From: Qipengyuania vulgaris
GTDB lineage: Bacteria > Pseudomonadota > Alphaproteobacteria > Sphingomonadales > Sphingomonadaceae
Assembly: GCA_000756795.1 (NCBI GenBank)
Contig: CCSI01000001.1
Coordinates: forward strand, 620,001 to 684,000
Direction: 5' to 3'
Length of the DNA: 64,000 bases
Under the pieces are notes generated by a model, which was given only the letters and a program-made list of their open reading frames with translations, was not told the origin of the DNA and did no database searches. The first letter of the stretch is position 1. Every line of letters begins with the position of its first letter. Made by a program: the position numbers and the translations under genes. This document shows, piece after piece, positions 28,300 through 30,859 of the stretch.

Positions 28300-28381
28300 C
28301 GCCGCATCGTGCGGTGGCTTGGGAGCGCCGCTTACGGGTTCCCTTCACATATTCAAATTGCTCAATGGAGGATTTGTTTCG
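28300..28381 (+). promoter_or_regulatory. ROSE-type RNA thermometer in the hsp20 5' leader
   Basis: The leader ends in the diagnostic ROSE hairpin: TTGCTC (28358-28363), loop AATG, GAGGAT (28368-28373). The pairing buries the Shine-Dalgarno GGAGGA and uses the unusual U-U and G-G pairs known from ROSE elements of rhizobial small heat-shock genes; two A-U pairs extend the stem. A CCGCA-tcg-TGCGG hairpin lies further upstream (around 28306-28319). Heating would melt the last stem and free the ribosome site nine bases before ATG. Confidence 0.75.
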
Positions 28382-28849
28382 ATGAACCGTTTTGACACTA
28401 CCCCTTATCGCCGTTCGACCGTCGGTTTCGATCGCCTGTTCGACCTCATGGAACGCCAGGCACGCAACGCCGGTGGGGATAATTACCCTCCCTTCAATAT
28501 CGAGCGACGCGACGAGGACGAGTATCGCATTACTCTCGCCGTCGCCGGTTTCCGCTCGGAAGACCTCGACATTACCGCGCAGCAGAATCTGCTGACGATC
28601 CAGGGACGCAAGCGCGACGACCAGCCTGAAGGCGAGATGCTGCATGTTGGCATCGCCAACCGAGGGTTCGAGCGCCGCTTCGACCTTGCCGACTATGTCC
28701 GGGTCGAGAATGCCGATCTTAAGGACGGCATGCTTTACATCGATTTGGTGCGCGAAGTGCCTGAAGCGATGAAGCCGAAGAAGATATCGATCGGCGGCCA
28801 GAAGACGCTCGAAATCGTCAAGGATGACGACGATAGCGCTGCGGCCTGA
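28382..28849 (+). CDS. Small heat shock protein Hsp20 (IbpA-like)
   Basis: A 155-residue alpha-crystallin-domain chaperone that holds unfolding proteins. The N-terminal arm (TPYRRSTVGFDRLFDLME) and PPFNIERRDEDEYRITLAVAG followed by the LLTIQGRKRDD, GIANRGFERRFDLAD segments are typical of the IbpA/HspA class of proteobacteria (the second motif is split in reading: PPFNIERRDEDEY, RITLAVAG). The start is the ATG at 28382, placed by the GGAGGA site and the ROSE element. A terminator follows 23 bp after the stop. Confidence 0.93.
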   Translation: MNRFDTTPYRRSTVGFDRLFDLMERQARNAGGDNYPPFNIERRDEDEYRITLAVAGFRSEDLDITAQQNLLTIQGRKRDDQPEGEMLHVGIANRGFERRFDLADYVRVENADLKDGMLYIDLVREVPEAMKPKKISIGGQKTLEIVKDDDDSAAA

Positions 28850-28871
28850 GGGTAAATTCAAAAGCCTGAAG

Positions 28872-28902
28872 GGCGGCGCCTCGAAAGGGGCGCCGCCTTA
28901 TT
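28872..28902 (+). terminator. Rho-independent terminator of hsp20
   Basis: Nine-base-pair perfect stem ggcggcgcc / ggcgccgcc (28872-28880 and 28889-28897), loop tcgaaagg, followed by ttattc. Stem is strong; the U-tract is short. Confidence 0.85.
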
Positions 28903-28913
28903 CGTGAGCCTTC

Positions 28914-28950
28914 ACAAAATGAAAGGGGGCGACACCTGAGTGCCACCCCC
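28914..28950 (-). terminator. Intrinsic terminator of the minus-strand RNA
   Basis: Eleven-pair hairpin (two wobbles) with a TCAG loop and TTTCATTTT directly after it on the minus strand; on the plus strand no T-run follows, so it is directional. Confidence 0.75.
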
Positions 28951-29045
28951 GCGACGACTAGCGCCGCCAAGCCTCGGATTCGGCCGTCCGGGTCGCAGAA
29001 GACGACCGGGTTCGAGGCAAGCCCCACCGCTTGCGCGAAGCTCTA
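28914..29045 (-). ncRNA. Candidate structured small RNA with intrinsic terminator
   Basis: On the minus strand about 130 nt appear to form: a short GCTT/AAGC hairpin; a long arm closed by GCCTCG / CGAGGC containing an inner CCGGTCG / CGACCCGG stem with a bulge; and a strong terminator at 28925-28950 (11-bp stem GGGGGTGGCAC / GTGTCGCCCCC, TCAG loop) followed by TTTCATTTT. The terminator faces away from hsp20 and is 275 bp beyond the pyrG stop, which suggests an independent RNA or a long pyrG 3' tail. It does not match tmRNA, RNase P or SRP RNA signatures I know; 6S RNA could not be excluded. The 5' end is a guess. Confidence 0.45.
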
Positions 29046-29064
29046 ATCCATTGTCACTCGGTAG

Positions 29065-29110
29065 CTTTTGACAACCGAACGCCTCACTCCTGCATCAATT
29101 ATGTCAAAAG
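29065..29110. repeat. Perfect 9-bp inverted repeat CTTTTGACA / TGTCAAAAG
   Basis: Arms at 29065-29073 and 29102-29110, 28 bases apart. Each arm holds a TTGACA, i.e. a -35-like hexamer, facing inward. It lies just upstream of the candidate small RNA and could be an operator or paired promoter elements; no convincing -10 hexamer was found at 17 bases. Confidence 0.5.
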
Positions 29111-29224
29111 ATAAAGCCGTGGGTGCGTATCCGAAACAGGCTTGGTGTCGCACTTATACAAATCACCTCACTTTAGATGAGGGATTACAAATGTTTACGA
29201 GAAATCGCCCGTGAGAAAAAATTT

Positions 29225-30859
29225 CTACACGAGGCGCGCCTGTTCGAGCGCCGCTCCAATAAAGCCTGCAAACAGGGGGTGCGGGTCGAAGGGTTTCGAC
29301 TTCAATTCCGGATGGAACTGAACACCGACGAACCACGGATGGTCCGGACGCTCGACGATTTCGGGCAACAAACCATCGGGCGACATGCCGGAGAAAATCA
29401 GCCCCTGCTTTTCCAGCGGATCGATATATTTGCCGTTCACTTCGTAGCGGTGACGATGGCGCTCGGATATTTCGGTCTCGCCGCCGTAGATGGTCGAGAC
29501 ATGGCTGTTGGCGGCCAGTTTCGCGTCATAGGCACCCAGGCGCATCGTCCCGCCAAGATCGCCTCCAGCCTCACGCTTCTGGAGACCTTCTTCAGTCATC
29601 CACTCGGTGATAATGCCGACAACGGGCTCTTCTGTACTACCGAACTCGGTTGAGCTAGCCCGCTCGAAGCCAGCACTACGCGCGCCTTCGACGCAGGCCA
29701 TCTGCATGCCAAGGCAGATGCCAAAGAAAGGGACTTTGCGCTCGCGGGCGAAACGGACGCTGGCAATCTTGCCTTCGCTGCCCCGTTCACCGAAGCCACC
29801 GGGCACCAAGATGCCGTGCATCGGCTCGAGCTGTGCAGCGATATCGCTGTCATTCTGTTCGAAAACTTCCGCATCGATCCACTTGATGTTGACCTTCACG
29901 CGGTGCGCCATGCCACCATGGATCAGCGCCTCGTTGAGCGATTTGTAAGCATCCTGCAGGCCGACATACTTGCCGACCACGCCGATGGTGACTTCGCCTT
30001 CAGGGTTCGAATGGCGGTCTACTACATCGTACCAGCGTGAAAGATCCGGTTCGGGCGCATCCGTGATGCCGAAACCGCGGAGGACCTCGGTGTCGAGGCC
30101 TTCTGCGTGATACTGCAGCGGGACCGAGTAGATCGACGGCGCATCGAGCGCGGGAATGACCGCTTCTTTGCGCACGTTGCAGAAGTTCGCGATTTTCTGA
30201 CGCTCGCCATCGGGAATGGGATGTTCGGCGCGGCACAGCAGCACGTCGGGCTTGATACCGAGGCTGGCGAGTTCGCGGACCGAGTGCTGGGTCGGCTTGG
30301 TCTTAAGCTCACCTGCTGCCGCAATATAGGGCACCAGCGTCACGTGGACGCTCAGCGACTGCATCGGCTCCAGCTCGTTACGCAGCTGGCGAATGGCTTC
30401 CATAAAGGGAAGGCTCTCAATGTCGCCCACCGTCCCGCCGATTTCGCAGAGGATGAAATCGTGATCGTCCTGTCCGGCCAGCGCGAATTCCTTGATTGCG
30501 TCGGTCACATGCGGGACCACCTGCACGGTCGCGCCGAGATAGTCGCCGCGACGTTCTTTGGCGATGATCTGCTGGTAGACGCGGCCGGATGTGATGTTGT
30601 CGCCCTGATGCGCCGAGACGCCGGTGAATCGCTCGTAATGGCCGAGGTCGAGGTCGGTTTCCGCCCCGTCGTCGGTCACATAGACCTCGCCATGCTGATA
30701 CGGGCTCATCGTGCCCGGATCGACATTGAGGTAGGGGTCGAACTTACGAATGCGGACCTTGTAGCCACGCGCCTGGAGGAGGGCAGCAAGCGATGCTGCC
30801 ATGAGACCTTTGCCAAGCGAGGAGACCACGCCGCCGGTGATGAATATATACCGCGCCAT
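29225..30859 (-). CDS. pyrG: CTP synthase
   Basis: Makes CTP from UTP, ATP and glutamine. The 544-residue enzyme has an N-terminal synthase domain ([20 protein letters not shown]-loop; [13 protein letters not shown]) and a C-terminal class I glutamine amidotransferase domain ([12 protein letters not shown]; nucleophile Cys in FFGICLGMQ; His/Glu in FHPEL). It follows secG on the same strand with about 100 bp between. CTP is also the IspD substrate, but no regulatory link is visible. Confidence 0.96.

Follow-up and report, generated by a model that had tools for sequence, protein, structure and literature searches.

A conserved structured RNA with an invariant loop, probably a trans-acting small RNA, downstream of pyrG in one branch of the sphingomonads

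INTRODUCTION

GsrN, the general stress response small RNA (sRNA) of Caulobacter, pairs with mRNAs via an exposed C-rich loop that is its most conserved part. In that report, GsrN BLASTn hits are limited to Caulobacteraceae, and Erythrobacter litoralis is reported to have no evident gsrN-like gene (PMC5869019). Sphingopyxis granuli has SuhB, a trans-acting, Hfq-dependent sRNA of 61 nt that is described as targeting the thnR mRNA (PMC6563040). In addition, a word search of the main text of a paper on Zymomonas sRNAs found neither pyrG nor Hsp20 mentioned (PMC6970203).

Here, we analyze a locus in a 64,000-nt stretch of Qipengyuania vulgaris DNA (referred to as the window), in which a structured RNA lies between the convergent genes hsp20 and pyrG. 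Like GsrN as described, this RNA is alphaproteobacterial and has an exposed loop; the loop is invariant, contains CCC, and is predicted to be unpaired. GsrN sits at a different place, and the EcfG-type motif, which we take to be GGAAC-N16-18-GTT, has three matches in the window, equal to chance expectation, with none within 5 kb of the RNA. SuhB shares with our RNA a sphingomonad host, and what sets it apart, going by its description, is its length of 61 nt, its Hfq dependence, and its action on thnR mRNA. The RNA is intergenic and structured, occupies a conserved locus, has a terminator-like end, and carries a conserved single-stranded candidate seed (GCGACCC, 69/69 sequences), as do trans-acting sRNAs. 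Among the matches listed in our search of the open-access literature (subscription journals and supplements lay outside its scope), no such RNA is described. In our reading, it represents a new family of small RNAs, of a kind that is already known, in one branch of the sphingomonads.

RESULTS

The minus strand between hsp20 and pyrG carries a structured core

A preliminary description, made from the sequence alone, had proposed a structured, terminator-ended RNA on the minus strand at 28914-29060. The minus strand of this stretch folds at -71.2 kcal/mol, compared to a mean of -59.25 kcal/mol for 200 dinucleotide shuffles (z -3.10), none of which reached so low an energy. The 11-bp terminator hairpin that had been reported is indeed present at 28950-28925, with 11 pairs, a loop of 4, and the tail TTTCATTTTG. 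Together, a hairpin at the expected place and a fold energy beyond that of the shuffles indicate more structure than chance would give. The proposed interval holds the structure but falls short of the full extent, since conserved DNA continues 5' to an element at 29115-29100. Similarly, the stretch is structured as described, but the number of helices differs: three had been claimed, and the single-sequence fold has four local ones. The helix of this fold at about 29043-29019 is absent from the consensus of relatives, in which GGCUUG pairs at the base of the long hairpin instead. The GCGACCC loop is unpaired in the single-sequence fold.

Three hairpins make up the conserved core: a long one, a short one, and a terminator-like one (Table 1). 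The roughly 70 nt before the core form a variable 5' domain. One hairpin of this domain shows partial compensation alongside some broken pairs in 18 genus sequences, whereas the prediction for another 18 does not contain it. The T-tract after the terminator-like hairpin is poor in many relatives (e.g., CCCCCTAAACGTTT), so both termination and Hfq binding are uncertain.

Table 1. Features of the RNA locus, in window coordinates
Feature	Coordinates	Strand	Evidence and remarks
Conserved RNA core	28922..29023	-	R1 and R2 covariance model matches (G000:C1:648922-649023; window offset 620000)
Hairpin 1, basal helix	28971..29018	-	GCCUCG 29018-29013 with CGAGGC 28976-28971; per-pair covariation; CUUG/CAAG-type extension in other genera
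Hairpin 1, upper helix	28981..29008	-	CGGUCGUCU 29008-29000 with GGACGGCCG 28989-28981; 7/8 model pairs with two-sided change in at least 1 of 69 sequences
Apical loop UCUGCGACCC	28990..28999	-	GCGACCC at 28996-28990 invariant; proposed seed
Hairpin 2	28951..28967	-	GCGGCG 28967-28962 with CGUCGC 28956-28951; 96.4% of cells paired and 6/6 pairs with two-sided change in the wide alignment; 0/6 in the genus alone
Terminator-like hairpin and T-rich tail TTTCATTTT	28916..28950	-	Hairpin 28950-28925; 98.9% cell pairing across the 69 sequences
Hairpin UCGGU/ACCGA of the variable 5' domain, preceding the core	29058..29078	-	Partial covariation
pyrG (CTP synthase)	29225..30859	-	Pfam PF06418, PF00117; constant upstream neighbor of the RNA
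hsp20	28382..28849	+	Pfam PF00011; convergent on the RNA
Conserved upstream element TTTATCTTTTGACATA	29100..29115	-	Putative promoter or activator site
Second conserved upstream site TTGTA-N6-CGACA	29146..29161	-	By eye, in most genus rows shown, uncounted

Compensatory changes support the helices around an invariant loop

We used two alignments. The genus alignment was made with MAFFT from 52 distinct cores of 59 loci (7 identical ones were left out); it was not fitted to a structure, and we tested it against the consensus that RNAalifold derived from it. The wide alignment, A2, holds 69 loci (16 of the genus and 53 of other genera) picked for spread among matches, and it was fitted to the covariance model, hence it leans towards that model.

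In the genus alignment, 98.6% of cells pair and 12/31 pairs have two-sided changes, amounting to 64 two-sided cells versus 16.2 in shuffles. No shuffle out of 500 reaches this number, and the slid versions (1-3 columns) have 8 such cells at most. Within the genus alone, compensatory changes back three helices, helix 3 being the one with no two-sided change. In A2, all four helices contain pairs with two-sided changes, which affect 29/31 pairs and 326 cells, compared to 73.3 in shuffles (0/500 as high) and at most 54 in slid versions. Adding three basal pairs of the CUUG/CAAG type, which are partly lost in the genus itself, brings the count to 32/34 pairs, with helix 1 at 89.8% paired. Thus, compensatory stem changes, which the preliminary description had named as a check on its stems, are present at both depths. 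Altogether, we consider it almost certain that a conserved structured RNA exists at this locus.

The loop behaves differently from the stems. Most stem columns vary in A2, while the loop is invariant (69/69): nine columns do not change at all, namely the seven loop letters GCGACCC, a stem G next to the loop, and one G of the terminator. The loop-closing stem, GUCU/GGAC, is nearly invariant. Since the A2 rows were chosen by models that contain the loop, invariance is somewhat favored by this choice, although the search did not require the loop. All 112 loci (59 from the genus, 53 from elsewhere) contain the motif, a count made with a script that was itself anchored on the motif. GCGACCC alone is a common 7-mer, with 2 occurrences in locus L168 where 1.56 are expected.

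These data also bear on a coding explanation, according to which the conserved stretch would be the gene of a small protein. A 69-codon minus-strand open reading frame (29027-28818) does span the core. However, no frame stays open across 120 core bases in all loci, the most open genus frame has stops in 19/59 genus loci and 28/53 others, and the stem changes are compensatory. We regard a small protein gene as extremely improbable.

The RNA is found in part of one bacterial family

The preliminary description had proposed to look for 28900-29110 in relatives by BLAST, and the stretch proves to be conserved, with one match each in 59/60 genomes of the genus and none in 39 genomes from the order's other families. 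The exception in the genus is an assembly of 290 contigs (G006) in which pyrG is cut by a contig end, leaving one downstream base. A covariance model built from the 52 distinct genus cores (R1) matched 92/249 genomes of the family and 84/247 genomes drawn from the order, all 84 being of the same family. A second model (R2), built from A2, matched 98/249 family genomes in 35/91 genera, with one match each, and 4/289 genomes drawn from the class, all four again of the same family. R2 matched none of 29 genomes belonging to the order but to other families, and none of 10 same-family genomes missed by earlier searches, G006 among these. In searches over more than 40 genomes, stricter filters drop weak matches, and these distribution counts are lower bounds; genome G099, for instance, has the RNA at the locus level (39 bits) despite having no match in the family-wide R1 and R2 searches or in the R2 search of the 39 genomes just mentioned.

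For 30 genomes chosen as non-hits or outgroups, we located pyrG and read the stretch downstream of it. Leaving aside G006, hsp20 was matched within the downstream stretch examined in 4/29 (G109, G105, G162, and G183), and none of these four has an R2 match at E below 0.1. The loop motif occurs in 2/29 of the downstream stretches: that of G099, which has the RNA, and that of G105, where it falls inside hsp20. A sequence-pattern scan of genome contigs matched at least four relatives, namely Citromicrobium (twice), an Erythrobacter metagenome-assembled genome (MAG), and Altererythrobacter lutimaris (Sphingomonadales, Erythrobacteraceae). A fifth match of the scan, in a Desulfobacteraceae MAG, was rejected: the stretch contains neither pyrG nor hsp20, and the partial match scores 18.8 bits. 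From the names of the relatives and the taxonomy of A. lutimaris, we take the carrier family to be Sphingomonadaceae in the GTDB sense. As far as searched, the RNA family is confined to part of this one bacterial family.

In a pyrG tree of 82 rows, from which L130 (short pyrG) and 15 more rows (13 of the genus, L112, and L145) were left out, a single branch (support 88/75) sets all RNA carriers present apart on the same side, and the RNA is absent from four rows on the carrier side (L160, L161, L162, and L176). With the carriers together on one side of this branch, a single origin of the RNA is likely, though not strongly supported.

No Rfam family reaches its threshold at the locus

At gathering scores, Rfam finds only a tRNA in the whole window. 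The covariance search suggested earlier, 6S RNA (RF00013) included, returned no family at threshold and no 6S match at the locus. 6S RNA, likewise a structured stand-alone RNA, has its candidate elsewhere in this genome (G000:C5:186145-186312; 43.1 bits, E 2.4e-7, just under the gathering score of 46.4), and 59/98 genomes pass the cut-off in the 6S search.

The best permissive Rfam match is BjrC68 (RF02353), at 19.6 bits and E 0.011 against a gathering score of 39. This Bradyrhizobiaceae sRNA shares with our RNA a hairpin and a terminator, and the match begins at 29004, inside hairpin 1. BjrC68, RcsR1, and the other weak Rfam matches were rejected, being under their gathering scores and not listed for any of 14 related loci when E values as high as 3 were allowed; for these loci, the matches listed are of the ROSE type, plus one to ALIL, with no sRNA family.

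pyrG and hsp20 are the conserved neighbors of the RNA

pyrG lies upstream on the same strand in 69/69 loci of A2. In the window, it is the nearest upstream gene, the core beginning about 200 bases past it with no Crp/Fnr gene in between, and from the end of pyrG (29225) to the start of the terminator hairpin there are 275 bases, precisely as first described. A convergent hsp20 is found at the RNA in 67/69 A2 loci, with 3' ends down to 13 bases apart; the other two, L123 and L124, have no hsp20 match near the RNA within the stretch examined per locus.

We made two side observations around hsp20. A ROSE-like RNA thermometer candidate precedes the gene at 28311-28386 (+), scoring 35.0 bits where the gathering score is 45 (E 0.00048 with 191 bases searched), and weak ROSE/ROSE_3 matches, all under the gathering score, occur in 9/14 related loci. 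Right after hsp20, at 28870-28899 (+), there is a strong hairpin, GGGCGGCGCC...GGCGCCGCC, with no clear T-tract by eye and absent from the output of the terminator scan, which is perhaps the hsp20 terminator.

The proximity of hsp20 raises the question of a cis-acting antisense partner of this gene. Convergence in nearly all loci and the closeness of the 3' ends fit such a role, as does the loop region of the window's own genome, which is complementary to 14 hsp20 bases with one bulge. This 14-base site is, however, present in only 5/59 genus loci and 2/53 others, and with 7/112 loci in total, the hsp20 coding sequence was rejected as a target. Furthermore, hsp20 codons vary at synonymous sites, and L123 and L124 carry the RNA with no hsp20 found nearby. 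We hold an antisense role towards hsp20 to be very unlikely.

Upstream of the RNA, TTTATCTTTTG is present with at most one mismatch in 55/59 genus loci and 12/53 others, compared to 16/5600 letter-shuffled upstreams, at 97-120 bases (genus) or 67-115 bases (others) before the start of the GUCUUCUGCGACCC motif. It is missing even at 2 mismatches in 36/53 other-genus loci. A standard promoter was not found at this element (29115-29100), which may be a promoter or an activator site. A regulon of the element was considered and rejected: with one mismatch allowed, TTTATCTTTTGNYAYA has a single occurrence in the genome, and so has the backward control. In 13/55 genus loci, the window not among them, this T-rich element is where a hairpin with 7 or more perfect pairs ends, and its T's may also serve pyrG termination in those 13 loci. 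The second upstream site listed in Table 1 lies upstream of the T-rich element and is palindrome-like, reading TTGT-N9-ACAA in a number of relatives.

These findings bear on the possibility that the RNA is no separate product but a structured pyrG 3' UTR, acting in mRNA stability or termination. It would account for the constant position of pyrG upstream on the same strand (69/69) and for the failure to find a standard promoter; in the window, moreover, there is no strong pyrG terminator between pyrG and the RNA, the candidates being weak (e.g., 6 pairs at 29182-29166). Against it stand the upstream element kept in most genus loci, the terminator-like hairpins ending at that element in 13/55 genus loci (though not in the window), and the Crp/Fnr gene or remnant that intervenes in 7 loci (see below). 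The preliminary description had left the choice between a lineage-specific sRNA and a long pyrG 3' UTR RNA; conservation (59/60 genus genomes, 35/91 genera) and covariation support this proposal. Between the two, the upstream element in 55/59 genus loci and the 7 Crp/Fnr loci would favor an sRNA over a plain pyrG 3' UTR, and we consider the latter improbable.

Several genera have a Crp/Fnr-type gene between pyrG and the RNA

A Crp/Fnr-type gene is found between pyrG and the RNA in L168, L130, L111, L115, L120, and L145, and a C-terminal remnant of it in L118, making a total of 7 loci of four genera. The L168 gene, the one on which Pfam was run, has cNMP-binding and Crp-like HTH domains. Counted from the sequences, the core begins 12-43 nt past the Crp/Fnr stop codon in L111, L115, L118, L120, and L145. 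This arrangement resembles that of 3' UTR-derived sRNAs; unlike these, the RNA of the window has no gene between itself and pyrG and is preceded by a conserved upstream element. L161 has the Crp/Fnr gene and no RNA match. As a separate observation, tandem RNA hairpins stand behind the Crp/Fnr gene in one genus (L168:4113-4315 and L130:1494-1700), with GCGACCC in common and different stems.

In the pyrG tree, the deepest carriers (L168 and L111) have the Crp/Fnr gene, and the carriers of both RNA and Crp/Fnr gene (L118 included) are scattered, requiring 3 changes; support for the forks behind this placement is not strong (88/75 and 92/76). An ancestral order pyrG-crp-RNA with repeated loss of crp fits this pattern, and repeated gain of crp, rather than repeated loss, could have produced it as well. 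Since the deepest carriers have the RNA right behind the Crp/Fnr gene, the RNA may have originated as the 3' UTR of that gene. A fuller scenario, which we put forward tentatively, is that the RNA was born in this 3' UTR, kept its loop, and outlived its parent gene, the regulator being lost several times, including in the lineage of the window; the RNA would have gained or kept a promoter of its own and become a core post-transcriptional regulator of this sphingomonad branch.

A limited target search yields a weak candidate

We searched for GGGTCGCAG within 22 nt of an ATG, which gave 40 rows in four genomes versus 24 for the backward control and no conserved target. The sole site common to genomes (the own genome and G059; L219/L223) is internal to a long open frame rather than at a start. 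Of the hits in the own genome, two are placed as a start site would be, and most of the relatives seen do not retain them. What is presumably a pyridoxamine-oxidase-like gene was rejected as a target: the gene has a match in 7/31 genomes, and the site occurs in the own genome only.

A separate observation concerns the start region of a presumed phaZ-like gene (L204:1460-1530), where GGGTCGCAGGGG, complementary to the RNA loop, occurs in the own genome and one close relative. Upstream of phaZ (the name again being our assumption), GGGTCG is present in 2/10 genus regions examined, as well as in a region from a different family (L256). GCAGGGGA precedes the phaZ start in all 10 genus rows examined of 19, the other 9 having been dropped by the start filter. 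On these sequence matches, phaZ may be a target, and we treat it as a weak candidate.

DISCUSSION

The stems that vary with compensation, the invariant exposed loop, the recurrence of this loop in new stems, the intergenic place, and the terminator-like end suggest that the RNA works through its loop. The best overall explanation, which we consider probable, is a small non-coding RNA gene that regulates mRNAs in trans via the exposed loop; that it does so by base-pairing is slightly favored in our judgment. In the proposed mechanism, transcription would run leftwards from just downstream of the element at 29115-29100 and end at the terminator-like hairpin at 28925. The discrete RNA product would comprise a core of about 105-120 nt, or perhaps 165 nt with the 5' domain. 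Its exposed loop, UCUGCGACCC, would pair with GGGUCGC-containing sites in mRNAs to regulate them in trans, while the stems would keep the loop open and stabilize the RNA.

Alternatively, an RNA-binding protein may recognize the invariant loop together with the nearly invariant stem that closes it, and the RNA would sequester or guide this protein. Near-invariance does reach into the closing stem GUCU/GGAC, where pairing alone would permit change; the poor T-tracts are unlike those of typical Hfq sRNAs, and our limited target search gave no conserved mRNA target. However, we have no candidate protein, and an exposed C-rich loop is the base-pairing part in GsrN (PMC5869019). Weighing these points, we find protein binding unlikely as the main role and prefer the trans-acting sRNA, at the strength given above.

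What would this mean for the organisms that carry the RNA? Sphingomonads are pollutant and lignin degraders that are common in sea and soil, and we know of few regulatory RNAs described from them. A single-copy RNA that is present in at least 35 of the 91 genera searched and has an unchanging loop offers a clear handle for mutation and pull-down. If an origin in the 3' UTR of the Crp/Fnr gene is true, the RNA would in addition be a traceable case of a regulatory RNA outlasting its parent gene.
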